Shown here: in pieces, positions 40,144 through 60,272 of the stretch
Layout of the letters: every line of letters begins with the position of its first letter
Numbering within the stretch: position 1 is the first letter of the stretch
From: Euzebya rosea
GTDB taxonomy: Bacteria; Actinomycetota; Nitriliruptoria; Euzebyales; Euzebyaceae
Length of the DNA: 64,000 bases
Reading direction: 5' to 3'
Assembly: GCF_003073135.1 (NCBI RefSeq)
Contig: NZ_PGDQ01000022.1
Span: forward strand, 1-64,000
Position numbers and translations under genes: made by a program
The notes under the pieces: generated by a model
Told to the model about the DNA's origin: nothing
Databases searched by the model: none
What the model saw: only the letters and a program-made list of their open reading frames with translations

Positions 40144-43100
40144 ATGGGCAAGGACACATTGACTTTCCTACGGTTTTTCGCAGTCACGACCGTCCTGGTG
40201 CTCGGGTTCGGGCTCCTGCCCACTCCCGTGCTCGCGCAGGGCCAGATCACCATCACCGACTCCGCGGGGAAGCCGTCGGTGCGTCGCGGCAGCACCCTGG
40301 AGTTCAGCGGGTCCGGCCTTCCCGACGGCCAGATCAGCCGTGCGGTCTTCCTGGCGCTCGCACCGGACGGTTCCGTGGAGGCCGAGCAGCAGATCGCGGG
40401 GCGCAACCGCACCGCGGCGGAGTCGCCCGAGGAGAACATCATCGTCCAGAACGGGTCGCTCAGCGGCAAGGGCACGCTGAACTGCCTGTTCGACGATCCG
40501 AGCGGGTGCGCCATCAACCACGGCGAGGTCGACGCCGTCCAGCTCGAGATCGTGGTCAACGGGCAGGTGTTCCGCAGCAACACCCTCGACGTGGACTACA
40601 ACGCGCCCCGCTGGGTCGCCGCCGTGACCCGGTCGTCCAACGAGATCGTCGTGATCTTCTCCGAACCCGTCGTGGTCCGCTCCACCGTCGGCGGCATCCC
40701 CCAGTCGGACTCCGCGGCTGACTGGACCGTCCGGACCGCATCGGGGACCAACGTGCCCGTCACCGCGGTGCAGCAGGAGGAACGGGACTGTCCCAACCTC
40801 GACAGCGGCTGCACCAGGATCCTCAGGTTGGCCAGCGGCGGGGGCGAGGACGTCGTCTACACCGTCACCTACGACCCCGAGAGCGTACGGGGACGGTACG
40901 GCGACCGGGCGGGGAACCCGATCACCAACATCGGTGCCGAGCGCACGATGACGACGACCGACAACATCCGCCCGGCCGTGCCGCAGATCGACCGGGTCAA
41001 CGGGGTCGCCACCAGCGAGAACGGCGACGGGAGCCCCGTCGTTGTCGTCGGCAACCGCAACCCCGTCGAGGTGCAGCTCTCCAACCTCAACCCCAACCAC
41101 CAGCTGACCCTGTTCGGGATCGTGGGTGGGCAGCGCCAGCAGCTGACCATCGAGCCGGCCAGCCCATCCGTCGACCTGCTGGGTCGCACCACGGTCAGCG
41201 CCACGCTGCCGCGGCCCAGCGGGCAGTCCACCCAGGACCGGGTGTTCACCCTCCTCGCGGTCGCGACCGACCCGTCGGGCAACTCCTCGGAGGACCGCAA
41301 CCAGCAGACCGCGTCCGAACGCGAGGACGGCGACTTCAACCCGACCGCCTACCACCTGGACACCATCGTCCCGTTCGTCCTGGACGCCGTGATCGACCCC
41401 CAGGACCCCAACACGGTCGTCGTGACCCTGTCCGAGCCGGTCACGCCCGACGGCAACGCCGGACGGTGGCGGATCCTGGACCAGGCCGTCACCGCCACGG
41501 GCACGGGGGCAACACGACGGCTGACCGCTTCCGCCCCGGTCAACGCCGCGGCCTCGGTGTCCTGGTCGCCCACCGACACCCGGTACCGGGACAAGGCCAC
41601 CAACGCGCTCGAGCAGTTCACCCGCCCCCTCGGCGGACAGCTGCCGGACATCCTGCCGCCCATCGTCCAGCAGCCGTCAGGCGACCCGCGGTACATCGCG
41701 GCCGAGCAGGTCACCGTGTCCGGCACGCTCCGGCCAGCGCAGGACGCCAGCACCATCACCGAGGTCGCCGTCGAGCAGGTCGGCGGCAGCGTAACCGACA
41801 CCGCTGAGGTCGCCGCGGACCGCAGCTGGTCGGTCGACATGCCGCTGGGCGCCGACGGGCTGTACCGGTTCTCCGCCCGCGCCCGGGACATCTTCGGCCA
41901 GACGAGCAGCGCGGCGCTGTCGGGTGAGATCGTGCACGACGCCACGGCCCCCGTCCTCGACCTGACCTATCCGCCGCCTCCCAGCAGCGGCATCGGTGGC
42001 CTCTTCGGCGGCGACCCCCAGGAGGAGCATCCGCAAGGGCAGCCGTTGCGCCTGGACTACGACCTGACCGAGGCCAACCACGACCGCGTGGACGTCGTCG
42101 TGACGTTCGCGGACGGGTCGACGGAGACCCACACCACCGCCAACCGGTCGTCGTTCGAGGTGCCGGTGCCGGAGGGGTACGCCGGCGACCTGTTCGTGGA
42201 GGTGCAGGCACACGACCTCGCCGGCAACGCGGGCAACGTGGCGGAGGGCGCCGTCGAGGTCCTCGCCGGCACCATCGGGCCCGACCGCGTCGAGCTCGTC
42301 GCCAACAGGACCGGCGACGTGCGGGTGGAGCTGGAGTTCGGCGTCGACCTGGCCGGCAGCACGATCGCCCTCGACTGGGCTGCCAGCGACGGGATCGAGC
42401 AGCCCGGCGAGACCGACACCCCGGACCGCACCCCGCTGTCGGCCAACCGCGCCGGCTCGGTCGTCACCCTGACGTTCGTGCAGCCGTTCCCGTCGACACC
42501 GGGCGACCCCAACGCCACGCCACGGATCGCCTTCGACCAGAGCCTCGGGAGCCTCCGGGGCGCAGGGGACGAGCGGATCCTGCTGCCCGGCAACACCATC
42601 GCGGAGGAGCACTTCCTGCCCGCCGACCCGACCATCAGCGGCGTGCCGGCCGGACCGGTCAGCACCGCCGCCGATGCGCCCGACGGGACGGACTGCACCA
42701 CCGGCACGGAGTCGGGCCAGCCCGTCGAGGGGTGCCCCTACACGTGGACCCTGAACGGGACGACGGACGGCTCGGCGCTGCCGAACACCTACCGCGTGTT
42801 CCGGACCGCGCCGATGGTGTTCGCCCAGCAGCAGGACCGCGCGCTGTTCGAGGGGACCGCAGGGACCGACGGGCGCTTCCGCTTCACCGTCCCGCTGCAC
42901 GCCAACACCGAGAACGGCTTCCGGGTCGAGGTCATCGACCCGAACGGCAACGAGGCCGAGGCACCTGCCACGTTCTCCATCGTCGAGGACTCCCTGCCGC
43001 CGGAGCTCGTGTCGCTGGTCGCCGGCTACGACGCCGGCGCGACCGAGATCGAGATCCTCTACGCCTTCGACGAACGGGTCGTCGACGTCGACCTCGTGTG

Positions 43101-45273
43101 GATCGACGCCGACGGGGACGAACGACCGATCACGCCGGCCAACCACGGGCCGAGCAGCGAGGACGGCCGCTCCGGCTCCTACACCTGGACGATCCCCGAC
43201 TCCGTCGACCTCGCGACCATGGGTGGCGTCGTCATCCGGGGTCGTGGCACCGACGTCGCGGGCAACGTCGGTGACTACGAGAACGCCAGCCTGACCGCCC
43301 TGCCACGACTGCTGAGTGCAGAGACCGACGGCCTGTCGACCATCACCGTGCGCACGTCCGAACCGGTGACCACGACCGCCGACGGACCCGCCGGGTTCAG
43401 GTTGCTGAACGGCCCGGGTGTCCGCACCACGACGGCCGACGGCACCCTCATCACCCTCTCCCTCAACGACGAGCTGCAGAGCGGCTCGACGATCGTGCAG
43501 TACACCGGCGACGGCGGCTGGGCCGCCCCGGACGGACGGCCCCTCGTGGCCGGTCAGCTGTCGGTCGACCTGCGCACGATCTTCCCCGTCACCGGCCTGG
43601 TCGCGGGACCCAACGCCGCGGGGGGCGCGAACCTGTCCTTCGTCGACGAGCGCAACCCGGCTGCCATGGTGGCCGGGTACGAGGTCGCGCGTGACGGGGA
43701 GGTCGTCACCGTCCTGCCCCGCGGGGAGCGCTTCTTCGCCGACGCCGACCTCGCGCCAGGCCTGCACACCTACACCGTGACCGTCGTCGGCTCCGGTGGA
43801 CTCCGCAGCGAGCCGCGTGCGGTGAGCGTGACGCTGGGGGCCGGCCCCGACGGCGACGGGACCGACGGTGGCACCGGCTATCCGCCGGGTTCGGGGATCG
43901 AGGTCGACTGCCCGTTCCCGGCAGCGCCGAACGTGACCCCCGACGGGGGCGGTGTCCTGTCCTGCGACGGGCGCTTCGCCGTGATCGTCCCGGCTGGCGT
44001 CATCGGCGAGGCGGCCTATGGCCGCATCGTGCGACGCGAGACCGTGCCCGTGGACGGGTTCCAGTCGGTGACATCGCTGTACCAGCTCGCGCTCGTCGCC
44101 GACGACGACGACTTCACCACCATCGATGCCTTCGACGGGTACGTCGAGGCCAGCGTGCGGGGGGTCGAGAACCTCCTCGCGGAGGCCGTCGTCGAGCGCG
44201 TCGCCATCAGTCGACTCCACGACACCGGTGCACACGACGAGCTCGGCACCCGCGTGGGACGCGAGTCCGCAGGGGCGTCCTTCGTGACGGTCGGCACCTT
44301 CGGCCTCGAGGAAGCCGACGGGGCCACCCTGCGGGTCTACGGCCCGGACCCGGCGATCACACCGGATCGCTTCGCCACCGCTGCAGGGTTGTCGCAGACG
44401 CAGTTCGCCTCCGCGGGCGCCGCGGTGCTGGCCCGCGCTGACGACTACCCCGACGCGCTTGCCGCCGCCACCCTCGCGGCCCAGGTCGGCGGACCGGTGC
44501 TGCTGACCCGGACCGACGACCTCCCCACCACGACGCTCCTCGAGCTCGAGCGGCTCGACGTCGACCAGGTCGTCCTGGCCGGTGGCACCGCAGCGGTGTC
44601 CGACGGGGTCGCCTCGACCCTCGGCACGATGGGCATCGACGTCGTGCGTGTCGACGGGCCGACGCGATTCCACACCGCTGCGGCGATCGCCACGCGGACC
44701 GGGTCCGTCGACGACCACGCCTACCTGGCCACGGCCGTCAACTTCGCTGACGCCCTGGCAGCCAGCGCCCCTGCGGCCGCACTGGGCCGGCCGATCCTGC
44801 TGACCCACCCCGACCGCCTGGCCGAGGAAGCGCTCGGCGCCCTCCTGGAGCTGGGGATCACCGACGTGACCATCGTGGGTGGGACTGCGGCGATCGACGA
44901 CGCCGTCGCCGAGGCGCTCCGGGCTGCCGGGTTCGCCGTCGACCGCGTCGCGGGCCTCACCCGCTACGAGACGGCGGTTGCCCTTGCTGGCCAGCTGGCC
45001 GCCGGTGGCCAGCTCGACATGCGCCGCCCGCTGGTCGCCTCGGGCGACGGTGACGGCGTGACCTCGCCTGACGCGCTGGCTGCCGGACCCATCGCGGCCC
45101 GCCACGGGAGCCCGCTCGTGCTGACGCCGCGGTCGGTCGTTCCCGATGTCGTCGTCGACCTGCTGTCGTCCTCCTCCGGCCTCCGTGGGCTGATGCTCGC
45201 CGGCGGGCCCGTCGCGGTCAGCGACGACGTCAGGGCGGCGCTGGACGACGCGGCACCGCCAACAGCGGACTAG
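40144..45273 (+). CDS. Giant secreted Ig-like protein with three C-terminal CWB2 repeats
   Basis: A 1709-residue exported protein. Signal peptide about 1-32 (ends VLAQ). The N-terminal domain begins ITITDSAGKPSVRRGSTLEFSG. A series of Ig-like/bacterial adhesin-like domains follows, many starting with a D-x-x-x-P motif. A fibronectin III-like domain lies near 1140-1240, followed by a beta domain with a cysteine pair. The last ~310 residues are three CWB2 repeats (LARADDYPDALAAATLAAQV, VLAGGTAAVSD, VDGPTRFHTAAAIA). It therefore carries a wall anchor that the three upstream paralogues lack. The ATG at 40144 is chosen because the signal peptide then starts at once; an ATG at 40105 is in frame. 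Role in anchoring or capping the A-C proteins is inference. Confidence 0.82.
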   Translation: MGKDTLTFLRFFAVTTVLVLGFGLLPTPVLAQGQITITDSAGKPSVRRGSTLEFSGSGLPDGQISRAVFLALAPDGSVEAEQQIAGRNRTAAESPEENIIVQNGSLSGKGTLNCLFDDPSGCAINHGEVDAVQLEIVVNGQVFRSNTLDVDYNAPRWVAAVTRSSNEIVVIFSEPVVVRSTVGGIPQSDSAADWTVRTASGTNVPVTAVQQEERDCPNLDSGCTRILRLASGGGEDVVYTVTYDPESVRGRYGDRAGNPITNIGAERTMTTTDNIRPAVPQIDRVNGVATSENGDGSPVVVVGNRNPVEVQLSNLNPNHQLTLFGIVGGQRQQLTIEPASPSVDLLGRTTVSATLPRPSGQSTQDRVFTLLAVATDPSGNSSEDRNQQTASEREDGDFNPTAYHLDTIVPFVLDAVIDPQDPNTVVVTLSEPVTPDGNAGRWRILDQAVTATGTGATRRLTASAPVNAAASVSWSPTDTRYRDKATNALEQFTRPLGGQLPDILPPIVQQPSGDPRYIAAEQVTVSGTLRPAQDASTITEVAVEQVGGSVTDTAEVAADRSWSVDMPLGADGLYRFSARARDIFGQTSSAALSGEIVHDATAPVLDLTYPPPPSSGIGGLFGGDPQEEHPQGQPLRLDYDLTEANHDRVDVVVTFADGSTETHTTANRSSFEVPVPEGYAGDLFVEVQAHDLAGNAGNVAEGAVEVLAGTIGPDRVELVANRTGDVRVELEFGVDLAGSTIALDWAASDGIEQPGETDTPDRTPLSANRAGSVVTLTFVQPFPSTPGDPNATPRIAFDQSLGSLRGAGDERILLPGNTIAEEHFLPADPTISGVPAGPVSTAADAPDGTDCTTGTESGQPVEGCPYTWTLNGTTDGSALPNTYRVFRTAPMVFAQQQDRALFEGTAGTDGRFRFTVPLHANTENGFRVEVIDPNGNEAEAPATFSIVEDSLPPELVSLVAGYDAGATEIEILYAFDERVVDVDLVWIDADGDERPITPANHGPSSEDGRSGSYTWTIPDSVDLATMGGVVIRGRGTDVAGNVGDYENASLTALPRLLSAETDGLSTITVRTSEPVTTTADGPAGFRLLNGPGVRTTTADGTLITLSLNDELQSGSTIVQYTGDGGWAAPDGRPLVAGQLSVDLRTIFPVTGLVAGPNAAGGANLSFVDERNPAAMVAGYEVARDGEVVTVLPRGERFFADADLAPGLHTYTVTVVGSGGLRSEPRAVSVTLGAGPDGDGTDGGTGYPPGSGIEVDCPFPAAPNVTPDGGGVLSCDGRFAVIVPAGVIGEAAYGRIVRRETVPVDGFQSVTSLYQLALVADDDDFTTIDAFDGYVEASVRGVENLLAEAVVERVAISRLHDTGAHDELGTRVGRESAGASFVTVGTFGLEEADGATLRVYGPDPAITPDRFATAAGLSQTQFASAGAAVLARADDYPDALAAATLAAQVGGPVLLTRTDDLPTTTLLELERLDVDQVVLAGGTAAVSDGVASTLGTMGIDVVRVDGPTRFHTAAAIATRTGSVDDHAYLATAVNFADALAASAPAAALGRPILLTHPDRLAEEALGALLELGITDVTIVGGTAAIDDAVAEALRAAGFAVDRVAGLTRYETAVALAGQLAAGGQLDMRRPLVASGDGDGVTSPDALAAGPIAARHGSPLVLTPRSVVPDVVVDLLSSSSGLRGLMLAGGPVAVSDDVRAALDDAAPPTAD

Positions 45274-45385
45274 GGCCGGACCGCACGCGTCGCAGCGATC
45301 CCTCCTCGGCGTGTCCGGGGACAGGGCGCCACCGGCAGGTCCTCGTCCCCGCCACCCGAGGGGCCCGGACGGTACGGTTGGCGAG

Positions 45386-45910
45386 ATGGATCCACGACTG
45401 AAGCGACTGGTACGGATCGCCCGGGACGTGGTCGTCCCGGCCCTGCGGAAGGCGGCCCGGGACCGCCGCGACGCTGCGCGCACACCTGGTGCCCACGCGC
45501 ATGCTCCCTCGCCGTCACCGCACGTCGATGCACGGCGCGGTGAGGTCGACACCGCCACCGCCAGGCCGAGGGTCGCCTACGCCCCCGCCCGCGACGACGA
45601 CGCCGACCCGGGCGAGGTCGTCTGGGCCTGGGTGCCCTACGAGGACGACCCGACGCAGGGCAAGGACCGTCCCCTGCTGGTCATCGGCCACATCGAGGAC
45701 GACGTGGCCGCCCTGGCGCTGACCTCGCGGGCACACGACGACCGCCATCACCATCCGCTGGGGACGGGCCCTTGGGACAGCCGCGGACGTCCGTCGTGGA
45801 TCAAGCTCGATCGGTTGCTGCGGCTGGATCCCGACGCGATCCGTCGCGAGGGTGCGGTGCTGGACAAGGACCGCTTCGACGACGTGGTCGCCGCGTGGGA
45901 GGCCTACTGA
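45386..45910 (+). CDS. PemK/MazF-like protein with long N-terminal extension
   Basis: A 174-residue protein. The last ~100 residues (from about 75) contain GEVVWAWVPYEDDPTQGKDRPLLVIG, which matches the PemK/MazF-like fold seen in many actinobacterial homologues that often stand alone without an antitoxin. The first ~70 residues are basic and then low-complexity (Ala, Pro, His), with a possible amphipathic helix at 1-28. No antitoxin gene is adjacent. The next gene begins two bases past the stop, so the two are probably co-transcribed. Toxicity is not shown by the sequence. Confidence 0.75.
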   Translation: MDPRLKRLVRIARDVVVPALRKAARDRRDAARTPGAHAHAPSPSPHVDARRGEVDTATARPRVAYAPARDDDADPGEVVWAWVPYEDDPTQGKDRPLLVIGHIEDDVAALALTSRAHDDRHHHPLGTGPWDSRGRPSWIKLDRLLRLDPDAIRREGAVLDKDRFDDVVAAWEAY

Positions 45911-47111: not shown

Positions 47112-47141
47112 CGGCCCCGACCGCATCTGCGGTCGGGGCCG
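47112..47141 (+). terminator. Hairpin after small membrane protein
   Basis: Arms CGGCCCCGACCGCA and TGCGGTCGGGGCCG, nearly touching, 44 bases past the stop. No clear T tract follows. Confidence 0.7.
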
Positions 47142-47196: not shown

Positions 47197-48780
47197 ATGG
47201 ACCGGACACGGCTGCAGCACGTCGCCCAGGCACCGACGAACCCCCGCCGGGCGCGTCCCGACGGCCGGGCCTTCGACGTCGCCGACCTCTACACCGACGG
47301 GCCGTTGCCGGTGGAGGCCACCGGGGACGCCGGCACGCTGCCGCTGGACGAGAAGCTCCGCCAGGCCTACTTCTGGATCGTCAACCGGGCCGTCATCAGC
47401 CCGCACTACGACCTGGACTTCCACGACGGACCCTCGCCGTCCTGGCGGTTCGGTGAGTCCGCCACGGAGGTCACGCTGCCGAGCGGGCAGAGCTACTCCT
47501 CCTTCGTGCTGCTGCCGCTGCTCAACTTCGCCGTCCGCGCCCGATGCCTGCTGGTCGGGGGCCCCGGCCGGGGAAAGACCGCCACGGCCACCCTGCTCGG
47601 GGTGCTCGCGGGGCACTCGCTGACCGACGTCCGTCGCGGCATGCAGCACGGCCACCCGCAGATGACCATCGCCGACCTGCTCGGCAACCCGCTGCCGGCC
47701 GACCTCGTCAGCGCCACCTCCACCGCCGACATCCGCATCGCCTGGCGGTCGTGGCTGGACATGCGGGTGCGGATCGTCGACGAGTACAACCGCATCCCGA
47801 CCCGAACCCAGTCGGCGCTGCTGACGTTGATGGGCGACGGGTACGCCGAGATGCTGGACCAGGTCAAGGAATGCCCCGAGGGGGCGTGGTTCCTGACCGC
47901 CAACGACGACGCCGGCGGAGGGACCTACAAGGTCATCGAGGCGCTTCGCGACCGCATCGACGTGACCGTCAAGGCGCTGGCGTTCAACCCGCGGTTCCTC
48001 GGTGCGCTGCTGGACCGGATCGAGGCCGGCTACCGGCCAGCGGAGGTGGTTCCCGAGCAGCTGGTCTTCACCAGCGACGAGCAGGACCGCATGCACGCGG
48101 AGATCCTGGCCGTGCCGATCCCCGAGGGCATCCGCCGTCGCCTGGAGTTCTTCGCCAGCCAGTTCGAGTTCGCCGAGTCCGCCGCCACGGTCCTGGAGTA
48201 CCAGACCAAGGACACCATCCGCCTGGCCGGCATCGAGCGGCACCTGCTGGACGACGACACCGGCACCGACCGGCTGGCCGACCTCGGCGTGCAGACCCTC
48301 AACGGCCTGTCGGTCCGCGCGCTGATGACGATCATGACGTTCGCCAAGGCGATGGCGTGGTTCCGGGGGATGGCGGCGGTGCAGCTCGACGACGTCCGCC
48401 ACGTGCTCGGGTTCGTGCTGCACGACCGGCTGGTGCCGGACCTCGACGCGCCGTTCTTCGAGGCCGAGGGAAACGCGGCGCTGCGGGCGGACCGCGTCGG
48501 CTGGATCCGGCGGCTGTTCGACCTGTCGTGCGCGGACTTCGACCGGCAGGGTCGCGACGAGGACGATCCGGTGTCGGCCCTCCTCGCGGAGTTCGACGCC
48601 GGCATCGACGGGCTGACCGAGTCGGTCACCCGCGAGCGGCTGACCCGCATCGAGGGCCTGCTGGCGTCGTGGGCCAGGGGCAAGAAGCTCTACGGGACGG
48701 TCTACGACGACGTCCTGGCGCTGAAGTACCTGCATCAGCGCTACACCAACTACCTGGCCTGGCTGCGGTGGCGGGGGTGA
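47197..48780 (+). CDS. MoxR-type AAA+ ATPase
   Basis: A 527-residue ATPase, first gene of a five-gene operon. Walker A GGPGRGKT is at 121-128 and Walker B appears as RIVDEYNRIP with an adjacent polar sensor region (FLTANDD). The N-terminal ~110 residues precede the AAA module and the C-terminal ~150 residues are helical, longer than in plain MoxR proteins. MoxR ATPases act with VWA-domain partners as chaperones that remodel or activate targets; a VWA gene lies two genes on. The stop overlaps the next GTG start (GTGA). Confidence 0.9.
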   Translation: MDRTRLQHVAQAPTNPRRARPDGRAFDVADLYTDGPLPVEATGDAGTLPLDEKLRQAYFWIVNRAVISPHYDLDFHDGPSPSWRFGESATEVTLPSGQSYSSFVLLPLLNFAVRARCLLVGGPGRGKTATATLLGVLAGHSLTDVRRGMQHGHPQMTIADLLGNPLPADLVSATSTADIRIAWRSWLDMRVRIVDEYNRIPTRTQSALLTLMGDGYAEMLDQVKECPEGAWFLTANDDAGGGTYKVIEALRDRIDVTVKALAFNPRFLGALLDRIEAGYRPAEVVPEQLVFTSDEQDRMHAEILAVPIPEGIRRRLEFFASQFEFAESAATVLEYQTKDTIRLAGIERHLLDDDTGTDRLADLGVQTLNGLSVRALMTIMTFAKAMAWFRGMAAVQLDDVRHVLGFVLHDRLVPDLDAPFFEAEGNAALRADRVGWIRRLFDLSCADFDRQGRDEDDPVSALLAEFDAGIDGLTESVTRERLTRIEGLLASWARGKKLYGTVYDDVLALKYLHQRYTNYLAWLRWRG

Positions 48781-49784
48781 CGTCGGCGGTCGGGTCGGCG
48801 CTCGGGACCGTGCTGAGGGATCGGCGCGACCGGTTCAACGCCCTGGCCGTCGAGGCCCGGCTGCTCGGTGGCGGCTTCGCCGAGGAGGCGTTCACCGACG
48901 CCCTGCGGGGACCGGTCGACGCCCTTGCCGAAGCGGTGGACCGGGTCGACCACACCGCGGTCGGCCCGACGGTGGAGGCCGCCTACCGGGCGGCGCTGAC
49001 GCTGACCAGCCGGGGCGTGGAGGTCGTCGGCCGCGGAGGCGACGCAGCCGAGGAACCGGTGGCAGCCGTCTGGGCGCGACTGCCGGAGATGGCCGGTCTG
49101 GTCGCCGCCGACCCCGTCCGTGTGCTCGGGTCGGTGACCAACGCGACGTTGTCGGTGGCCGCGACGCCCGGGGTCGACGTCGCGGGGTGGGTCGACCGGA
49201 TCGGTGCCCTCGGCGCGAGGCTGGCGGGGGAGGGGATGGCCGGCGTCGGTCCGTGGCTGGCAGCCGGGCGGGTGGCGGCGTGGACCTGCGGCATGGCGCA
49301 CCAGCGCGACACCGCCCTGGCGGCGATCGATGGGCTCCCGCCCTCGGTGGTTGCAATGGCCGTCGGCCTGGACGAGGTCGACCTCGCGTCGTGGACACCG
49401 ACCGACCGCTGGTCCCGCCCGCCGGCCCCCGCTGACCGGGACGACCACGGGTACGTGGTCGGGCGTCCCGTCGGGGGCTTCGTCGGGTTCGGGGGGCCCT
49501 TCACCCGACCGCCCCGCGTGTGGGTCGACCAGCACGGCGCCATCCACGCCACCGGCGGCCCCGACGACGGGGTCTGGCGGATGCACGCCGACGCGTTCGG
49601 CACCACCCTCCTGCGCGCCTCCCACGGCACCGTCCCCGTCGGTCCCGGCAGGGTCGACCACTGGCCCCCCACGCCCATCCCGCGGGTCACCTCGCTCGCC
49701 GCCACCGACGACACGTTCGCCGTCACCACCTCGGCCAGCCACCGGATCGCCGTCACGGGCCGGACCGACAGGGTGTCGGCGTGA
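48777..49784 (+). CDS. Unknown protein of the MoxR-VWA operon
   Basis: A 335-residue protein with no recognised domain. The first ~180 residues are Ala-rich and helical. The C-terminal ~150 residues contain short beta repeats such as RPPRVWVDQHGAIHAT and VWRMHADAFGTTLLR, ending in FAVTTSASHRIAVTG, which may be a small propeller-like or beta-sandwich domain. Some MoxR-VWA systems encode a beta-propeller (bpX) component at this place, but I cannot confirm the match. GTG start overlapping the ATPase stop; its own stop overlaps the next start. Confidence 0.75.
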   Translation: MTSAVGSALGTVLRDRRDRFNALAVEARLLGGGFAEEAFTDALRGPVDALAEAVDRVDHTAVGPTVEAAYRAALTLTSRGVEVVGRGGDAAEEPVAAVWARLPEMAGLVAADPVRVLGSVTNATLSVAATPGVDVAGWVDRIGALGARLAGEGMAGVGPWLAAGRVAAWTCGMAHQRDTALAAIDGLPPSVVAMAVGLDEVDLASWTPTDRWSRPPAPADRDDHGYVVGRPVGGFVGFGGPFTRPPRVWVDQHGAIHATGGPDDGVWRMHADAFGTTLLRASHGTVPVGPGRVDHWPPTPIPRVTSLAATDDTFAVTTSASHRIAVTGRTDRVSA

Positions 49785-51562
49785 GGGGTCGTGCGGTCCC
49801 CACCGAGCTGGTGGAGGCATGGCAGGACCGCTGGTCCGACGCGCTCGGGCTGTGGAGCCGCTTCACCAGGCTGCGCCCCCCGACCCTGTGCACCACCTCG
49901 TCGGCGGCCCGGCGGGAGGGGCTGCGCGACAGCTTCGCCATGATCAGGCTGGCCGACCAGTCCGTCGTCGTCGACCTGCAGCGGATCGTCGCCCTCGGGC
50001 TGGCCGACCGACCCCTGGAGGTCCTCGGCCACGAGATCGGCCACCACATCGCCGCGCCGGCGTCGGTCACCACCTCCGCCCGGGTGATCGCACGCATGCG
50101 AGTGGCGCTCCCCGGGGTCGAGCACACCGCGCCGATGCTGGCCAACCTCTACGCCGACCTGCTGATCAACGACCGCCTGCAGCGCGACCGGGGGCTCGCC
50201 GTCCACGAGCTGTACCGGGCCATCGCCGCGGCGAGCAGGTCGACACCGACGCCCCTGTGGCGGATGTACCTGCGGACCTACGAGATCCTCTGGGCGCTGC
50301 AGGGCGGCACGCTGACCGACGCCGACCCCGGCACGCCGTTGGCGTCGCGCATCGAGGGTGATGCCCAGCTCTGTGCCCGCCTGGTCCGCAGCTACGCCAG
50401 CCAGTGGGCGGACGGCGCCGGCCGGTTCGCCGCACTCTGCTTCGGCTACCTCGAGGCCGACGGCGACGGCTCGCTCGACCCCGCAGGGGTATGGGACGAC
50501 GCCACCACCGCCGGTGCCGGTGCACGGATCCCCCCGGGGCTGGCCGCCCCCGACCCGGAGGAGGAGGCCGGTGCCATCCACCCGGCGCTGGACCCCGCCC
50601 TCAACGGCCTCGGCCGAACCACGAGCGACGCCACGGCCCCGGCCGACGTCACCGGACCGCCGCGGGTCGACCCGGGCAGCACCGCCTCCGCCGGCCAGCA
50701 CCGCGAACCGTTCGAGTACGGCGAGATCCTCCGGGCCCTCGGGATGGACCTGACCGGCCACGAGGTGGCCGTCCGCTACTACCGCGAGCTGGCCCAGCGC
50801 CACCTCGTCCCGTTCCCCACCCGTCCCGACACGACGCCCGGCGAGGTCCTGCCGGAGGGCTTCGAACCGTGGACGCCCGGCGAACCGCTCGCCGACATCG
50901 ACTGGCTGCAGACGGTCCTGACCAGCCCCACGGTCATCCCGGGCGTGACCACGGTGCAGCGCGTCCACGGGGTCGACGACATGGCGCCGCCGGCCCCCGT
51001 ACCGGTCGACCTCGACATCTACATCGACTCGTCCGGCTCGATGCCCAACCCCCAGCAACGCCTGTCCTACCCGGCGCTGGCCGGCACCGTGCTGGTCCTC
51101 TCGGCGCTGCGAGCCGGTGCCCGGGTCCAGGCCACCCTGTGGAGCGGCGCCCAGCAGTTCCAGACCACCGACGGGTTCACCGAGGACCGCGACGCGATCC
51201 TCAGGGTGGTCCTCGGGCACATCGGTGGGGGCACCGCGTTCCCCCTCCACGTCCTGCGCGACACCTACCGAAACCGGCGGGACGACGACCGACCCGCCCA
51301 CATCCTGGTCGTCTCCGATGACGGGGTGACCACGATCTTCAACGACGACGAGGAGGGCACCCCGGGGCGCGAGGTACAGGCAACCGCGCTTCGTCGGGCC
51401 CGCGGCGGCGGGACATGGGTGCTGGAGCTGTTCGGCCGTCCCGCCGGGATCGACGAGGCCCGCGACCTGGGCTGGACGATCGAGGAGGTCGACGACCTCG
51501 AGGGCCTTGTCGCCTTCGCGCGACGCTTCGCCCGGGCCACCTACGCCGGGACGCCGGCGTGA
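49781..51562 (+). CDS. HExxH metallopeptidase-like + VWA-domain protein
   Basis: A 593-residue protein joining two functions. Near the N-terminus VLGHEIGHHIAA has the zinc-binding HExxH motif (His84, Glu85, His88). The C-terminal part is a VWA domain with the metal-ion-dependent adhesion site DSSGS (Asp416, Ser418, Ser420) and a later GGGTAF loop. The middle ~290-380 is acidic and linker-like. VWA plus MoxR is a classic chaperone couple; the peptidase-like motif suggests an output of regulated proteolysis or a structural zinc site. It recalls DUF2201-type metallopeptidase/VWA proteins, but the motif differs, so the family is uncertain. GTGA overlaps on both sides. Confidence 0.83.
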   Translation: MRGRAVPTELVEAWQDRWSDALGLWSRFTRLRPPTLCTTSSAARREGLRDSFAMIRLADQSVVVDLQRIVALGLADRPLEVLGHEIGHHIAAPASVTTSARVIARMRVALPGVEHTAPMLANLYADLLINDRLQRDRGLAVHELYRAIAAASRSTPTPLWRMYLRTYEILWALQGGTLTDADPGTPLASRIEGDAQLCARLVRSYASQWADGAGRFAALCFGYLEADGDGSLDPAGVWDDATTAGAGARIPPGLAAPDPEEEAGAIHPALDPALNGLGRTTSDATAPADVTGPPRVDPGSTASAGQHREPFEYGEILRALGMDLTGHEVAVRYYRELAQRHLVPFPTRPDTTPGEVLPEGFEPWTPGEPLADIDWLQTVLTSPTVIPGVTTVQRVHGVDDMAPPAPVPVDLDIYIDSSGSMPNPQQRLSYPALAGTVLVLSALRAGARVQATLWSGAQQFQTTDGFTEDRDAILRVVLGHIGGGTAFPLHVLRDTYRNRRDDDRPAHILVVSDDGVTTIFNDDEEGTPGREVQATALRRARGGGTWVLELFGRPAGIDEARDLGWTIEEVDDLEGLVAFARRFARATYAGTPA

Positions 51563-52125
51563 GCCCCGCAGCCGGGCCGCCCGTCCAGCGCCTGACCAGG
51601 CGGCTGGCCGAAACCCCCTCGGCCTTCCTCGGCCCCGTCGACGTCGCGGCGGTCCTCTCCGACGTGCTGGCCGACCTGGGACACGAACCGCTGTCGGAGG
51701 AGTGGCTGGACGCGCTGACGCCGCAACGCCCGTCCGAGGCGCAGGTGGGGTGGCTGCGGACCTGCGCCGTCGTCGCCTGGCTGGTGGCCGATCCGCAGGT
51801 CGGCGCGATCACCAGCACCCACGCCGTCCTGCGCCTGCTCGGCGGGGACCTGCACACCGTCGCCGAACACGTGCGTGCCGAGGACTTCGTCGGGGAGGAC
51901 GATCGACGGGAGGAGCTGGCCCGGCTGCTGCTGCGCGCGGCCGGTGTGGTCCCCGCCGGTGAGACCGAGACCCAGGCCGCCGACCGGCTGGCGACGCTGG
52001 ACACCGCCACGCGGCTGCGCGTCATCGCCGAGGCCCGCGCCGCCGAAGCGCACACCGCGAAGGTCCGGCAGGCGCTGGCCCGCAAGCGGGCGCAGGAAGC
52101 CGCCGCCAAGGCCACCAGGGAATGA
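51559..52125 (+). CDS. Helical unknown protein of the MoxR-VWA operon
   Basis: A 188-residue, mostly helical soluble protein. PVQRLTRRLAETPSAFL opens it; residues ~130-188 form a long charged helix ending in Lys/Arg/Ala-rich sequence (ARKRAQEAAAKATRE). No family is recognised. It starts with GTG overlapping the VWA gene and is followed after 13 bases by the adenylate-forming enzyme. Within the operon it is a candidate adaptor or substrate of the ATPase. Confidence 0.75.
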   Translation: MSPAAGPPVQRLTRRLAETPSAFLGPVDVAAVLSDVLADLGHEPLSEEWLDALTPQRPSEAQVGWLRTCAVVAWLVADPQVGAITSTHAVLRLLGGDLHTVAEHVRAEDFVGEDDRREELARLLLRAAGVVPAGETETQAADRLATLDTATRLRVIAEARAAEAHTAKVRQALARKRAQEAAAKATRE

Positions 52126-52138
52126 GGTGTCGTCGCCG

Positions 52139-53458
52139 ATGAGCACCCTGCCCGACCACATCACCCCGTCAGGGGCCGAGGCCTACCGGACGCTCGTCGA
52201 AGCGCCCGGCTCCCCGATTTGGACCCACCCGCGGGAGGATCGCCTGACCCCGGCGATGCGACGCGAGGTGCAGGCCTTCGCCGCCCTCGTCAGGACGCAC
52301 CCCCCGGCGTGGCACCCCGGCCGGCAGCCGGCGTGGCTGGACCCGTGGCTCGAGCGGATCTGGGGCCACGTCCCCGCCCTCGCCCGACGCGGACCCCGGC
52401 CGCCGAACCTCGGCGACATCACCCCGACGAGCCGATCCGACCTGGCCGCCGACCCCGCCGCCCACGTCCCCGACGACATCGCCCTGGACGAGCTGCTGGC
52501 CTACTCGACCTCCGGGACGGCCAGCGCACCGATGACGGTCCCCAGCCACCCGGTCACCACCGCCTCCTACTACCCGCTGCTGCGCCATGCCGCCTCCTGG
52601 ATCGTCGACGTCGACCTCAGGCCGGACCACCTCGACTGGGTCACCGTCATCAGCCAGGAGGTCGGGGGCTACGTCATCCCGTCGTGGTCCTCGACCACCG
52701 GGACCCTGACGGCCCAGATCTCCCTGCACGCCGATCGCTGGCGAACACCCGCCGACATCGGCACGTTCCTCGCCGACCACGACCCCCGGGTGATCACCGG
52801 CGACCCGGTGGCCTTCGACGTGCTGCTGGAGCTCGATCCGTCCATCCACCCACAGCTGCTGGTGTCGACGGCGTCGGCGCTGTCGGCGGGGCTGCGCGAA
52901 CGGCTGGAGACACGGTTCGGCGCACCGGTGCTGGACGTGCTGTCGCTGACCGAGACGGGACCGGTCGCGGTGTCGACGACCGCGGGTGGACCCCACCGGC
53001 TGGTGCAGCCACGACTGTTCGTGGAGACCCTGCGGCCGGACGGATCGCCGACAGCGGAGGGCGAACAGGGTGAGATCGTGCTGACCGGCGGGATGAACCG
53101 TGCCCTGCCGCTGGTCCGCTACCGCACCGGGGACCGGGCGACCCTCCGCTGGACGCCGGACGCGACCGCACCCGTGCTGGACGACGTCGAGGGCAGGCCC
53201 GTCGTGGTGTTCAGGACCCTGGACGGCGGTCGGGTCAACAGCCATTCGGTCACCGTGGCGTTGCGTCCCCTGGCGCTGCCACGCCTCACCCTCCACCAGG
53301 ACGGCGACGGTGGGCTGATCCTCGGGCTCGACGACCCCGACGGCCCCGACGCCACACGCGCCCTGACCCTCCTCGGCGAGCTCTTCCCGGGCAGCCCGAT
53401 CGCCGTCGTCGCCGTGCCGACGGACCGTGCGAAGGTCGTGCCCTACTCGACGGACTGA
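52139..53458 (+). CDS. Adenylate-forming (PaaK-like AMP-ligase) enzyme
   Basis: A 439-residue enzyme of the ANL/PaaK-like family. The phosphate-binding motif YSTSGTASAPM (about 124-134), LSLTETGPV and RYRTGDRATL match the core A3, A5 and A7-type motifs, so it should activate a carboxylate as acyl-AMP. No acyl-CoA or carrier-protein partner is near. The C-terminal domain is short. As last gene of the MoxR-VWA operon it may modify a protein or small molecule; substrate is unknown. The ATG lies 13 bases after the helical gene. Confidence 0.82.
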   Translation: MSTLPDHITPSGAEAYRTLVEAPGSPIWTHPREDRLTPAMRREVQAFAALVRTHPPAWHPGRQPAWLDPWLERIWGHVPALARRGPRPPNLGDITPTSRSDLAADPAAHVPDDIALDELLAYSTSGTASAPMTVPSHPVTTASYYPLLRHAASWIVDVDLRPDHLDWVTVISQEVGGYVIPSWSSTTGTLTAQISLHADRWRTPADIGTFLADHDPRVITGDPVAFDVLLELDPSIHPQLLVSTASALSAGLRERLETRFGAPVLDVLSLTETGPVAVSTTAGGPHRLVQPRLFVETLRPDGSPTAEGEQGEIVLTGGMNRALPLVRYRTGDRATLRWTPDATAPVLDDVEGRPVVVFRTLDGGRVNSHSVTVALRPLALPRLTLHQDGDGGLILGLDDPDGPDATRALTLLGELFPGSPIAVVAVPTDRAKVVPYSTD

Positions 53459-53480: not shown

Positions 53481-53508
53481 GAGGGGCCGGCCCGTGGGCC
53501 GGCCCCTC
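53481..53508. terminator. Bidirectional hairpin between convergent operons
   Basis: Arms GAGGGGCCGGCCC and GGGCCGGCCCCTC with a two-base centre, between the stops of the AMP-ligase gene (23 bases) and the convergent CWB2 gene (22 bases). Confidence 0.8.
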
Positions 53509-53530: not shown

Positions 53531-56149
53531 TCAGCCCGTGGGCGCCAGGCGGTGCTGGTTGGCGACGCCGACGGTCCCGCCCCCCGGCAGGTCGTCGCCG
53601 GCCCGCCTGACCTCGATGGTCGCGACGTCGGGATCGGCGTCCGCCAGCGCGGTCTCGAACACGTCGGGCGTGACCTCGGTGCCGTCGACGTAGTAGCGGT
53701 TCTGGACGCTACCGCCGTCCCGGAACGGGTCGCCGGTGTACGGCAGGTCGTTGTACACGGTGCCGTCGGCCGTCACCACGTCGTAGGACGGCGACGTCGC
53801 GGCCGTCTGGACGTCGGTCGGGCTGCCCGACAGGAACTGGTTGACCAGCTCGACCCGCTGGGGCGTCTCGCTGGAGGCCGGCACGACCGTCACCCGGTCA
53901 CCGGGCGACCAGGCCTCCTGCAGGTCACCGATCGTCGACAGCACACCGTCCACGACGTACGTGCCACCGGTCAGGTCGATGGTCCGCGTGACCGGGCCCT
54001 GGCCGGGAACCAGGAGGTCGACCTGCCCCGCGTCGCTGAGGTCGTAGAACTGGGTCGCCAGACCGGTGGTACCAGCCGCGATCGCGTTGACCAGGCTGAA
54101 GACCTCGACGTCGTCCTGCCGCGAGTAGGTCAGCACGTCGCCCTCGCTGAGCGCGAGGTCGAACTGGGAGTAGTCCGCGGCGACGCCGTCGACCTCGTAG
54201 TCGTACGACGGACCGTCGTTGGCCTCGAACCGCAGGTCGCTGCTGTGGAAGGGCACGTCGCCGAGCATCGGCGAGTCCGGCAGCCCGCCCGAGTCGATGC
54301 GCATCTGCAGGCCGAAGGACCCGTCGAAGGTGGCGAAGTCGAAGACCGGGCCCGACACCGAGGCGTTGGTGAGGTCGATGGTCGGCACCTCGGCCGCGGT
54401 CTGACCGAGGACGACGGTGTCACCCTCGTTGATGTCCTCCTCGAGGCTGGACAGCGGCGCGTTCACCCCGTCGACGGTGTACAGCCCGCCGGGCAGGTCG
54501 AAGGTTCGAAGCTCCACGCCCGACACGGGCTCGATGATGTCGGCCTGTCCGCCGATGAGGTCCACGTTGCCGACGACGCCGCTGGTGTAGTCCAGCGGGT
54601 CGATGTTGACCAGGGAGTGCTCGACACCCCCCTGCGCGAACCCGCTGCCGTTGTTGCTGACCACGTCACCGACGGTGGCCTGCTGCAGGAACACCGCCTC
54701 GCTGGCCGGCTGCCCGTCGACGAGGAACGTGTCGTCGGTGCCGATGGTGACCAGGACCTCCTCGAGGCCGGGGACGTAGGCGTAGGCCTCGCCGAGGTTG
54801 GCGGTCAGGATGCCGCCGTCGGCGGGGACGATGGTGTAGGTGGCCGTGTCGACCTGGGTCGACCCGCCGGGCAGGTCGAGGGTCACGGTCACGACGCACG
54901 ACGTCGTCGGAGGACCGGCGATGGCCACGTCGGTGGTGCCGGACACCGGGGTGTCGGCGATGCAGTCACCGGTGGCGGTGCCGGCCTCGGCGTTCTCGCC
55001 GACGATGGCGATCTCCACGGTGCTGCCGACCGGGATGGTGGCGCCGCTGGCCGGGGTGAAGGTGACGTCCGCCTGTGGCGGCAGCCCCCGGGTCACACGG
55101 GCGAGCTCGCACGTGGACGGCAGCGTCGCGCAGGTCAGGACCGCGTTGTCGAAGAAGTCGGTCTGGGCGAACCCGCCGGGCGGGGTCAGGAAGTCCGTCG
55201 TGGAGCCCGGAAGGCCGTCGCCGTTGGCAAGCACGATCGGGGCGTCGAACTCCGCGGAGTGGGCGGCAGCGGCGAAGCCCCCGGCCCATGCGTCCTCGGC
55301 CTGGCCCTCGACGAGGATGACCCGGCCGGCGTCGCTGGCGTTGTCCACGCCACGCATCTCCGCGACCGCGATGGCCGTGTCGAAGCGGGTCGGGCCGGCG
55401 ACCCGGGTCGTGGCGATGCCCATCTCCTCGAGCTCGTTCTCGACGGTCTCGGAGATCGCGGCAGTGCCACCCATGATCATCATCGTGTCGATGGAGGACC
55501 GCTCGAGGTAGGCCCGCACGCTGCCCGGGAGGGTGTCGGTGGGGGTCAGCAGGATCGGCCACCCCTCGTCCGCGGCCCACCCGCCGGCAGCGAGGGAGTC
55601 CGCGAACGCCTGTGACGCATCGGTGCTGCCCTCGGCTGCGAAGCCACGAGCGAGCAGGGCCGTGTTGGCGGTGGGCGCCTCGACCTCGGCGATGTTGATG
55701 GCGGTCTCGAAGCGGGTGGGGCCCGACCGACGGGTCACCTGGTAGTCCGCGGCGAGCTCCCGCTCCACATCGGCCGACAGGGCCGCCTCGCCGCCGAGCA
55801 GCACGACCTCCGACGGGTCGTAGGTGGCCAGCAGGTCGCGCACGCGCTGGGAGATCGGACCCTCCGTGGGCACGAGCAGCAGGGGCGCCTCGGCCTGCAT
55901 GACCGCGCTCGCCATGTTGTCGGCGAACTGGTCCTCGCGGCCGATGAGCACCCGCTGGGTGGGGCCGTCGAAGGTGGCCTCGGCCAGGCGGGAGACGATC
56001 TCGACGGTGTCGAGCGTCTCGCCCTCCTTGATCACCGAGATGGTGTCACTGACATCGGCGGCGGCGGGGATCGCCAGCGGCAGCACCAGCAGGGCCGCCA
56101 ACAGGATCACCACGCCTCGGACTCGCGTGGACAACAACGATGCAGACAT
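53531..56149 (-). CDS. Secreted CWB2 protein with five repeated C-terminal modules
   Basis: An 872-residue exported protein. Signal peptide about 1-31. Residues ~35-345 hold CWB2 repeats (VVLLGGEAALS, TMMIMGGTAAIS). An Ig-like domain (about 365-465, Cys pair) follows. The remainder carries five modules of about 80-95 residues, each with an aromatic-x-VDG core (FLVDGQ, YTVDGV, YEVDGV, YVVDGV, YYVDGT) followed by a GD-x-V segment. I do not recognise the module. GAGGGAG lies before the ATG. A wall-associated adhesin or sensor is possible. Confidence 0.83.
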   Translation of the reverse strand: MSASLLSTRVRGVVILLAALLVLPLAIPAAADVSDTISVIKEGETLDTVEIVSRLAEATFDGPTQRVLIGREDQFADNMASAVMQAEAPLLLVPTEGPISQRVRDLLATYDPSEVVLLGGEAALSADVERELAADYQVTRRSGPTRFETAINIAEVEAPTANTALLARGFAAEGSTDASQAFADSLAAGGWAADEGWPILLTPTDTLPGSVRAYLERSSIDTMMIMGGTAAISETVENELEEMGIATTRVAGPTRFDTAIAVAEMRGVDNASDAGRVILVEGQAEDAWAGGFAAAAHSAEFDAPIVLANGDGLPGSTTDFLTPPGGFAQTDFFDNAVLTCATLPSTCELARVTRGLPPQADVTFTPASGATIPVGSTVEIAIVGENAEAGTATGDCIADTPVSGTTDVAIAGPPTTSCVVTVTLDLPGGSTQVDTATYTIVPADGGILTANLGEAYAYVPGLEEVLVTIGTDDTFLVDGQPASEAVFLQQATVGDVVSNNGSGFAQGGVEHSLVNIDPLDYTSGVVGNVDLIGGQADIIEPVSGVELRTFDLPGGLYTVDGVNAPLSSLEEDINEGDTVVLGQTAAEVPTIDLTNASVSGPVFDFATFDGSFGLQMRIDSGGLPDSPMLGDVPFHSSDLRFEANDGPSYDYEVDGVAADYSQFDLALSEGDVLTYSRQDDVEVFSLVNAIAAGTTGLATQFYDLSDAGQVDLLVPGQGPVTRTIDLTGGTYVVDGVLSTIGDLQEAWSPGDRVTVVPASSETPQRVELVNQFLSGSPTDVQTAATSPSYDVVTADGTVYNDLPYTGDPFRDGGSVQNRYYVDGTEVTPDVFETALADADPDVATIEVRRAGDDLPGGGTVGVANQHRLAPTG

Positions 56150-56324
56150 GTCTGGCTCCCTCGGGGTACGAAACCGGCGATCACGGACAAGGACGTCCGG
56201 AAACGGGCAACCCTCGTGCCCGTCGCCGATACGTGATCCTCGCACATCGGACCTGATACGTGCCGCGTGCACATCCGATACCAGTCCCGGGGGCGTCAGC
56301 GCCCGTTCGTCAGCGCGCCGTTGG

Positions 56325-57542
56325 TCAGCGCAGCCGCTGCTGGGGAGGGGCGAGCTTGGTCGGGCCGACTCGCTCGACACCCGGGTCCGGCTCGACCCGG
56401 TACAGCGCGTCCTCGAGGTCGTCGAAGGCCTCCCCCGGGCGGGGCTTCTCCAGCCGCAGCTCGCTGTCCTGCATGGCCGCGAGTCCGGCCTGCAGCCGAC
56501 GCATCACCGCGTTGACCAGCCAGAGGGGCTGGTACACCACGACGCTGCCTGCCCAGGCGCACATCTGCTCCATCACGTCCCAGCCGAGGACGACGGGGAA
56601 CTCGCCGTAGACCTCCCAGTGGTCGGAGTCCGGCAGCTCGCGCGCCTCGAACTGGCTGATGTTGAACTGGTTGCGATCGGCCATGATCCGGTAGAGGTCG
56701 TGCATGACGACCAGGTGCAGCGGTTCGGTGCGCAGCTGCACCGGCTCGGCGAGCGGGGGCATGTCCGCATCCCGGACGCGCTGGATGCGCTCGAGGGCGA
56801 ACTGGCGTTCCTCGCCCGGGGTGCCGTCGTCGTCGACCTCCACGCAGATGGCCTTCATCGCCGGGCCGGTGGGCACGTAGGTGACGGGGACCAGCAGGTA
56901 GGTCTTGGTGCGGCCCGAGTTCATCGAGTGGTACTCCACGGTGACCGGCGTGCGGGTCGTCCGTGCACGTTCGAAGCGCTGCATGTCCGCCGTGCCCAGG
57001 CGCATCGTGCGGCTGCCGACGGCCCCGGACGTGGCCCCCACGCCCGGCAGCAGCCCGTCGAGCACCTGCATGGCGTGGCCGACCAGCGGGGTCGGCTGGC
57101 GGGCGACGAGGGTCTTGAGGTGCCCGAGCGCCGTGCGCTGCAGGTCGTCCAGCAGCGGGAGCGGCTGGGTCAGCCGGTGCACGTCGCCGTCGCTGACCAC
57201 GGGCAGCGCGGCGGCATGGTCACCACCCCGCTTGCCGGTGGCCCGCAGGTCACGCAGACGGTTCTCCAGGTCGCTGGCGCCGACCCAGCCCACCTGGCGC
57301 ATGGCCCGCAGCACCGACTTGGTGTCGGCGGGGCCTGCCGCCAGGCATCGCAGGATGGCGACACGCTGGCCGTCGCTGAACCGTGCGGAGGGGCGGGGGT
57401 GCGCGTCGACGTACCGCTCGGCGATCGACCGCCAGACCGGGTCGTCGGGGTCGCCGATCGCGCGCCCCTCCCAGTCAGCGACGTCGCGCGCATCGACCTT
57501 GATCGGTCCCGCATCGGTGTCCACCACGATTCCGTGTCCCAT
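56325..57542 (-). CDS. WYL-domain-like protein
   Basis: A 405-residue soluble protein. A central part (about 190-270: RTPVTVEYHSMNSGRTKTYLLVPVTYVPTG) resembles the ligand-sensing WYL fold of bacterial regulators, and an N-terminal winged-helix-like section (about 45-110) could bind DNA or RNA. The C-terminal ~130 residues are unassigned. The ATG at 57542 begins MGHGIVVDTDAG; there is no clear ribosome site. It is 40 bases downstream of the reductase gene on the same strand and so may share its transcript. Confidence 0.6.
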   Translation of the reverse strand: MGHGIVVDTDAGPIKVDARDVADWEGRAIGDPDDPVWRSIAERYVDAHPRPSARFSDGQRVAILRCLAAGPADTKSVLRAMRQVGWVGASDLENRLRDLRATGKRGGDHAAALPVVSDGDVHRLTQPLPLLDDLQRTALGHLKTLVARQPTPLVGHAMQVLDGLLPGVGATSGAVGSRTMRLGTADMQRFERARTTRTPVTVEYHSMNSGRTKTYLLVPVTYVPTGPAMKAICVEVDDDGTPGEERQFALERIQRVRDADMPPLAEPVQLRTEPLHLVVMHDLYRIMADRNQFNISQFEARELPDSDHWEVYGEFPVVLGWDVMEQMCAWAGSVVVYQPLWLVNAVMRRLQAGLAAMQDSELRLEKPRPGEAFDDLEDALYRVEPDPGVERVGPTKLAPPQQRLR

Positions 57543-58835: not shown

Positions 58836-60272
58836 TCAGCGGGGCAGCAGCTGCAGCTGGTCGGGGGTGGCGCCACCCACCAGCCATGCCTCCGGGTACT
58901 GCCCGCGGTTGTCCTGCATCACGACCTTGTCGGGGTCGAGGTGGGAGGACCCTCGGCCACGCTCGAGGATCGTGATCTCGTTGCCCTCGATCGACAGCAG
59001 GGCGTAGGAGGCGTTGTCGGTGTCGTCGGTCTCCTGCACGTTGTCGAGGACGTCGACGGTCGCCCGCACCACGTAGGTGCCGTCCGGCTGGCCCGAGAAG
59101 TCCACGAACTGCCCGGGCCGCTGCCAGCGGTAGAAGTCACCCCAGCCCGCCGTGATGCCCATGGCGCCGTCGCCGGCGATCGCGAAGCAGCTGCCGGACT
59201 GCTGTGCGCCCAGCGCGCCCTGTTCGTCCTGGTCGAAGGCCTCCCAGTCGCCGTAGCCCTGATCCGCGGGGCAGAAGCCGGACTTGTGGCCGACCCCGGC
59301 TGGCGCGACCGTGCCGGCCGCGTCGTCGACCGACAGCAGCTCGTAGAACAGGATGTCGGTGTAGTGGTAGTGGCCGTGGGTCGCGTGGTACTCGTAGCTG
59401 CCGGCGTCCCGTTCGGTCGTGGTGCCGTCGCTGTGGTGGACGACCTGGGTCATCTCCACCAGCCGGTCCCGGTCGTTGATCGCGCGGTCGAGGATCGGGA
59501 AGCGCAGGTCGAAGTGGCCGTCGCCGACGTTGTGCGGTCCTGCGGTGAAGCGCAGGCAGCGGGTCAGCAGGGTCGGGTCGTCGTTTCGGGTGGGATCGCT
59601 GGCCTCCTGCACCTCGTCGGCCGTGCACGAGTACAACGGCTGGCCGTCGACGACGACCGGCGGGTTCTGGTCGTCGCCGGCGAGGAACATCGAGTTGGCG
59701 GGGTTGATGGGGGCGGCGAACCCGAACTCGAACGGCGGGGTGACCCGCAGGTTGGGCAGCAGCTCGCCTTCGGGCTCCGTGGGGGTCGCCAGGCCCGCCC
59801 GCAGGCGCACGATCGTGCCGGCGGTGCGGATCGGCGTCAGCTCGATCGTCCATCGACCCACCGTCGGGGCGTCGAAGGCCACTCCCTCGGAGTAGGTGTT
59901 GTGCGACGCCTGGGTCGCCGTCTCGCCGTCCGGTCCGGTCACGGTCAGGCTGAAGTCGTCCTGGCGGTAGGGGTTGTCGAAGTCCACGCGCAGCTGGCTG
60001 GTGGACTCCGCCACCTGTACCGACCAGGTGAACACCAGCCCGTCGTCGCACGTGGGCGGCGCCGACACGTTGGCCGCCGACGGCTCACCGTCGCAGGTGA
60101 AGAACGGCGTCTCCCAGAACGTGGCCGGCACCTTCCCGTCGAGCAGGCCGACCGGGCCGGACTCGACCGTGCCGAGGTGGCGGTGTTCGGTGTGGCCGTC
60201 GTCCTCGCCGAGGGCGGGCTGGGCCACCATCGCGAGGAGGAGCAGGCAGGACAGGAGGGTGGTCGTACGCAT
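58836..60272 (-). CDS. Secreted lysyl-oxidase-family protein
   Basis: A 478-residue exported protein. Signal peptide about 1-22. Residues ~172-430 align with the lysyl oxidase (LOX) family: the copper site appears as HATHGHYHY (His296, 299, 301 and 303). The GHKSGFC segment puts Lys330 in the place of the LTQ-cofactor lysine. A WGDFYRW segment about 60 residues later is in the usual place of the partner tyrosine, and a final VQETDDTDN run is also typical. LOX enzymes oxidise amines such as protein lysines to aldehydes that cross-link. Start may instead be the GTG at 60278, which has a better ribosome-site spacing. Bacterial members are poorly studied. Confidence 0.85.
   Translation of the reverse strand: MRTTTLLSCLLLLAMVAQPALGEDDGHTEHRHLGTVESGPVGLLDGKVPATFWETPFFTCDGEPSAANVSAPPTCDDGLVFTWSVQVAESTSQLRVDFDNPYRQDDFSLTVTGPDGETATQASHNTYSEGVAFDAPTVGRWTIELTPIRTAGTIVRLRAGLATPTEPEGELLPNLRVTPPFEFGFAAPINPANSMFLAGDDQNPPVVVDGQPLYSCTADEVQEASDPTRNDDPTLLTRCLRFTAGPHNVGDGHFDLRFPILDRAINDRDRLVEMTQVVHHSDGTTTERDAGSYEYHATHGHYHYTDILFYELLSVDDAAGTVAPAGVGHKSGFCPADQGYGDWEAFDQDEQGALGAQQSGSCFAIAGDGAMGITAGWGDFYRWQRPGQFVDFSGQPDGTYVVRATVDVLDNVQETDDTDNASYALLSIEGNEITILERGRGSSHLDPDKVVMQDNRGQYPEAWLVGGATPDQLQLLPR

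Follow-up and report, generated by a model that had tools for sequence, protein, structure and literature searches.

A five-gene operon in Euzebya rosea

We analysed a 64,000-nucleotide stretch of the Euzebya rosea genome (contig NZ_PGDQ01000022.1, positions 1 to 64,000; hereafter the window), in which five consecutive forward-strand genes form an operon. They encode a MoxR-type AAA+ ATPase (47197-48780, 527 aa), a protein named here after its open reading frame, ORF2 (48777-49784, 335 aa), a protein that combines an HExxH motif with a VWA domain (49781-51562, 593 aa), ORF4 (51559-52125, 188 aa), and a PaaK-like ligase (52139-53458, 439 aa). The first four genes are joined by GTGA overlaps at 48777, 49781, and 51559, and a gap of 13 nt separates ORF4 from the ligase gene. 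Comparison with the congener locus L093 gave ratios of nonsynonymous to synonymous substitution rates of 0.075 for the AAA+ gene, 0.21 for ORF2, 0.11 for the VWA gene, 0.20 for ORF4, and 0.22 for the ligase gene, which indicated purifying selection on all five. The low ratios and the recurrence of the same gene order in other genomes exceed chance, and the operon is thus confirmed as a real feature.

The AAA+ protein passed the Pfam cut-offs for AAA_3 (PF07726, 28.0 versus 27 bits) and AAA_lid_2 (PF17863, 32.7 versus 22.7 bits), and it carries Walker A GGPGRGKT, Walker B DE, sensor 1 N236, and R374. With the AAA_3 core, AAA_lid_2, both Walker motifs, the sensors, and the arginine finger, it has the features of a MoxR ATPase; Walker A was identical in all 28 AAA+ proteins compared, and the remaining AAA motifs were conserved. 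The VWA domain at the C-terminus of the third protein stayed under the Pfam cut-off by sequence (E 0.12), and its fold was clear in a Foldseek comparison, with the VWA domains of NorD and Rpn10 among the best matches. Its metal ion-dependent adhesion site (MIDAS) is complete (D416, S418, S420, T485, and D513) and invariant in 32 of 32 homologues, so the VWA fold, the DxSxS-T-D site, and the adjoining MoxR gene identify it as a MoxR-partner VWA protein.

The N-terminal half of the same protein contains HEIGHH (H84, E85, and H88). The HExxH motif was present in all 32 homologues of the five-gene type, and D126, a candidate third metal ligand, was invariant. Judged from these residues, the domain is probably zincin-like and may bind zinc and act as a protease; the window protein matched no Pfam peptidase family, and M48 appeared in one member only (E 0.01). 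Distant actinobacterial AAA+-VWA pairs (L058-L060, about 30% identity), which are without ORF2, ORF4, and ligase, keep the MIDAS, and their HExxH is degenerate in three of three. DUF2201 proteins also have a zincin-like domain before a VWA-like domain, usually together with MoxR, and the window protein resembles them in this arrangement but not in its Pfam matches: none of 10 members matched PF13203 or PF09967 at E ≤ 1, and no match was found in the window's own genome, so membership in this group was rejected.

Pfam gave no family above cut-off for ORF2, ORF4, or the VWA protein. An AlphaFold2 model of ORF2 (predicted local distance difference test score, pLDDT, 72) had a helical N-terminal half and a small C-terminal beta domain; the protein carries the motif GxFxGFGGxFxxPP and is the most variable of the five (21-32% identity in the alignment). 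The beta domain matched partial beta-propellers only weakly (E 0.09), and with no bpX match in Pfam the idea of a bpX propeller was dropped. ORF4 is rich in Ala, Arg, and Glu, apparently helical, and marked by the motif RREEL..R. It adjoins the ligase gene in nearly all loci; a DUF6483 gene lies between them in L002 (2638-3306) and L006 (10418-11098), both from uncultured genomes that group with Chloroflexota. In the Chloroflexi locus L003, ORF4 and the ligase gene are doubled, the second ORF4 being frameshifted, and this doubling suggests that the two act as a pair.

The ligase profile matched solved structures of phenylacetate-CoA ligase (PaaK) at E 4e-20. In NCBIfam it matched the DVU_1553-family AMP ligase (E 8e-18), but it stayed under every family cut-off, including that of TIGR02155 (PaaK; 33 versus 646 bits). 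The window protein contains TSG, ETG, RYRTGD, R353, and a C-terminal K432, and the ANL/PaaK motif residues (TSG, ETG, YxTGD, and GR) were kept in 27-28 of 28 ligases. It has the adenylate-forming fold and motifs in common with PaaK and DVU_1553-family ligases, but the operon has no gene for ring cleavage, a coenzyme A pathway, or a carrier protein. A preliminary description of the window, made from its sequence, had reported a five-gene run with three GTGA junctions, encoding a MoxR-VWA couple, a peptidase-like motif fused to the VWA domain, and an acyl-AMP-forming enzyme; its overlaps agree exactly with ours, and the Pfam AAA families, the VWA fold and MIDAS, the invariant HExxH, and the PaaK-type fold and motifs bear out the assignments.

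The operon is bracketed by two perfect forward-strand hairpins. The upstream one (47112-47141, 14 bp, arms 100% complementary, -34.2 kcal/mol, z -3.75) probably ends transcription of the gene before the operon, and the downstream one (53481-53508, 13 bp, -30.3 kcal/mol, z -4.91), 23 nt past the ligase stop codon, is the probable transcript end. An Rfam search gave no RNA element.

Distribution and joint inheritance

A protein search recovered nine loci in Acidimicrobiia, Chloroflexi, Leptospiraceae, Panacagrimonas, Labedaea, Actinokineospora, and uncultured bacteria, and the genes found were always in the same order (L002 begins at a contig end, and the ligase gene of L004 is truncated by one). 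Altogether, the five genes occur in one order in Actinomycetota, Chloroflexota, Leptospirales, and Gammaproteobacteria. The module is rare or patchy within these groups: whole-genome searches found it in 12 of 297 Pseudonocardiaceae genomes, 11 of 30 genomes from the order of the Leptospiraceae genome, 2 of 85 from the Panacagrimonas order, 2 of 4 from the window's genus, and 4 of 28 from the order of genome G202. This last set overlaps the 301 genomes drawn from the phylum of the Chloroflexi genome G200, among which there was one clear match. In Pseudonocardiaceae, a search with ORF4 returned the same 12 genomes as the VWA protein plus one fragment and one marginal match (Fisher 2e-20).

Trees of the VWA protein and the ligase recovered the same main groups. 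Both placed the window with Acidimicrobiia and apart from Pseudonocardiaceae, and the VWA tree added the Panacagrimonas group, which indicated that the five genes were transferred together between phyla. The conserved order, co-inheritance, and matching trees agree with the preliminary view of one functional unit; scattering of the genes, or ligase and VWA genes in separate operons, which that description named as contrary evidence, was not seen in the relatives checked.

Some loci depart from the common layout. At L098 (Leptospirales, 9090-11856) only ORF2 and the VWA gene remain nearby, with HExxH intact, and in L003 a proline-racemase-like gene lies between ORF2 and the VWA gene. A lipoprotein gene stands directly upstream of the AAA+ gene in the Leptospiraceae loci L096 (6472-8277), L095 (13095-14936), and L005 (3549-5366), and its product, scanned in L096, carries its own VWA and a CsgG-like domain. 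Reading frames conserved across a genus around the loci of Pseudonocardiaceae were set aside, most of them being wrong-frame artefacts or a result of synteny.

Conflict systems built around MoxR-vWA couples have been proposed, with four ternary types that are each characterised by a VMAP, iSTAND, FtsH, or beta-propeller component, and effector swapping between relatives serves as a criterion for such systems (PMC7159879). As in those systems (Kaur et al. 2020, PMC7159879), the window has MoxR, vWA, and further conserved proteins, and some of the published systems have a separate zincin and radical S-adenosylmethionine (SAM) peptide-processing unit nearby; in the window, however, the zincin-like domain is N-terminal on the VWA protein itself, an AMP ligase is added, and effector domains are absent. 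The window P-loop is the canonical GGPGRGKT, whereas a GXXXTAKS variant is frequent in the FtsH and propeller types, and the main text of the same paper contains neither "acyl" nor "adenylat". None of the five proteins matched VMAP, iSTAND, FtsH, or bpX in Pfam, the VWA protein has no C-terminal effector domains, and every complete locus has the same ligase and the same VWA architecture without any effector exchange. Membership in the published MoxR-vWA conflict systems, to which the preliminary description had compared the window genes, is therefore not supported.

The module might still be an anti-phage or cell-suicide device, in which ORF2 would be the sensor, MoxR-VWA the threshold, and the zincin-like domain or the ligase the effector, with salvage repairing the loss of nicotinamide adenine dinucleotide (NAD). 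The patchy distribution, the transfer between phyla, ORF2 as the fastest-evolving member, and a SIR2-domain gene that in L001 follows the module at a distance of about 2 kb would fit such a device. But PADLOC-DB, run on the five genes and ten neighbours, matched none of the five (IetA alone appeared, at E 0.044), and no copies were found on 72,556 plasmids, on 50,697 phages, or on viral contigs. The locus has uvrB as a near neighbour in several Pseudonocardiaceae, and all complete loci keep the same ligase, whereas conflict systems swap effectors (PMC7159879). So a reading as part of defence islands was dropped, and we regard a conflict role as improbable; a maturation or metabolic device is more likely than virus defence. 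The L001 SIR2-domain gene (about 13400-14932) has a ThsA/STALD match (E 5e-31) and a macro-like N-terminal part.

Association with nicotinamide riboside salvage

The module is linked to nicotinamide riboside and NAD salvage, a new finding that the preliminary description did not foresee. NadR follows the ligase gene in the Leptospirales loci L095, L097, and L099-L102, in L007 and L094 of the Panacagrimonas order, and in the Chloroflexi locus L003, and PnuC lies between ligase and NadR in three loci. The stop codon of the ligase gene overlaps the NadR start codon in L099 and L101. Thus, PnuC-NadR salvage genes adjoin the ligase downstream in three phyla but not in the window's locus, and the window's genome has its NadR on another contig. 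Unlinked NadR genes, mostly beside PnuC, were also found in four Leptospirales and in the actinobacterial genomes. The ligases of L099-L102, with NadR directly downstream, keep the motifs other than the C-terminal lysine. In L003, the first ligase gene is followed (11822-15246) by a NadR with the nicotinamide mononucleotide (NMN) adenylyltransferase part only, a radical SAM gene, and the frameshifted ORF4 with its ligase gene.

Strong NadR matches (E < 1e-20, our own threshold) were counted anywhere in the genome, unlinked copies included. Of 25 module-positive genomes, 20 had such a match, as against 3 of 55 genomes without the module; these counts ignore phylogeny, and their sample contains no module-negative Pseudonocardiaceae. 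Where both states were sampled, the numbers were 15/19 and 3/55 (stratified Cochran-Mantel-Haenszel p 1e-8). The contrast between module-positive and module-negative genomes was 10/11 versus 0/18 in Leptospirales, 2/2 versus 2/27 in the Panacagrimonas order (those two having the kinase half only), 2/2 versus 1/2 in the window's genus, and 1/4 versus 0/8 in the order of G202.

The association may be incidental, NAD salvage being needed for other reasons and the gene order inherited or moved together by chance. That the window's genus and Pseudonocardiaceae carry their salvage genes away from the module, that the Leptospirales signal may come from few independent events, and that the module-free congener G951 has NadR all fit this explanation, and a salvage-dependent lifestyle could account for part of the association. 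Adjacency in three phyla, overlapping stop and start codons in two loci, and the Leptospirales contrast, with unlinked cases among the positives, argue against it, and we hold it to be a serious but rather doubtful alternative.

The same neighbours raise the question of a biosynthetic or cofactor pathway, in which ligase, NadR, and radical SAM enzyme would make a small molecule, derived from nicotinamide or of another kind, and MoxR-VWA-zincin would insert this molecule or a metal into one enzyme, in the manner of NorQD or of chelatases. It would draw on the NadR and PnuC adjacency, on the radical SAM genes of L003, L007, and L094 (haem and metallo-cofactor maturases are among their top NCBIfam matches, all under cut-off), and on NorD among the fold matches. 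NorQ-NorD, like the window pair, joins a MoxR ATPase to a VWA protein whose MIDAS is complete and which has a long N-terminal domain, but it has no counterparts of ORF2, ORF4, or the ligase, and we know of no HExxH in NorD. It inserts FeB into nitric oxide reductase, whereas no such reductase was seen beside window-type modules; the metal is inserted by twisting NorD (PMC13036017). No constant target enzyme is encoded beside the module, radical SAM genes occur in 3 of about 30 loci and the search made in the window's genome found none, and NadR resembles the ordinary bifunctional enzyme. A pathway of this kind is therefore unlikely in our judgement. The radical SAM genes of L007 (9758-10723) and L094 (8770-9735) are inserted between the VWA gene and ORF4, and their products have a probable SPASM-like cysteine C-terminus. 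A ribosomally synthesised and post-translationally modified peptide (zincin, radical SAM enzyme, and ligase) was also considered and rejected, as radical SAM genes are confined to three loci and the intergenic stretches of L007 showed no precursor gene.

A candidate maturation machine

The constant order in four phyla and the company of NAD genes indicate a real, apparently undescribed machine. The module is rare, constant in composition, stable in its chromosomal sites, and linked to NAD, all of which points to client maturation or activation, or to a cofactor pathway, more than to conflict; a radical SAM gene in two lineages fits a modification pathway as well. We tentatively favour, at somewhat below even confidence, a maturation or activation machine in which MoxR-VWA is joined to the activation of an acid and to NAD metabolism. 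By analogy with NorQD, the MoxR protein would form an AAA+ hexamer that uses ATP to pull the VWA protein. The latter would hold a client through its MIDAS, so that pulling could remodel the client or the ligase, and its zincin-like domain would probably cut or open the client. ORF2 and ORF4 may be adaptors that give specificity, and the PaaK-like enzyme would activate a carboxylic acid as acyl-AMP, for the client or for a small molecule. The process would draw on or feed the nicotinamide nucleotide pool, which would explain its inheritance with NadR and often PnuC.

Several points weigh against this machine, in addition to the scope of the NadR counts, the few events behind the Leptospirales signal, and the NadR of G951. 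The module occurs without NadR in G199, G803, G806, and G198. The C-terminal A10-type lysine, present in the window ligase and most relatives, is missing in L099-L102 and was not seen in L097, so some copies may not catalyse adenylation. The AlphaFold models, built from 9-10 sequences, are of modest confidence.

A protein-quality or stress system, with clients unfolded by MoxR-VWA for the zincin and with proteins tagged or repaired by the ligase through acylation, would account for the conserved zincin and AAA+ sites and would agree with general MoxR chaperone roles (PMC3893208). It seems a poor candidate, since the module is rare within families (12/297), unlike general quality-control systems, and since NadR is left unexplained.

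The maturation machine could also be read more narrowly, as an undescribed five-protein, ATP-driven machine that spread between phyla as a unit. Its MoxR-VWA-zincin complex and acyl-adenylate-forming enzyme would then act jointly on a client that depends on NAD or is linked to nicotinamide, giving a new modification of a protein or cofactor. We consider this conceivable but on balance unlikely; in one version, the ligase step may consume or yield nicotinamide nucleotides, which NadR recycles. Among the papers searched, none described a system that combines MoxR with NadR or PnuC, or MoxR with an AMP ligase and a radical SAM enzyme. MoxR-VWA pairs are widespread and their clients are known for few, so the constant extra parts and the tie to NAD salvage offer a handle on a new client and on a new type of chaperone-coupled chemistry. 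The module also adds three protein families without an entry in the Pfam version used.

The operon is flanked (40105-45273 and 53531-56380) by genes for very large proteins that are probably secreted and carry cell-wall-binding CWB2 repeats. A MazF/PemK-type toxin gene (45311-45910, Pfam E 7e-11) lies just upstream of an HpcH-type aldolase gene, and further downstream is a gene for a lysyl-oxidase-domain protein with a pre-peptidase C-terminal domain (58836-60707).

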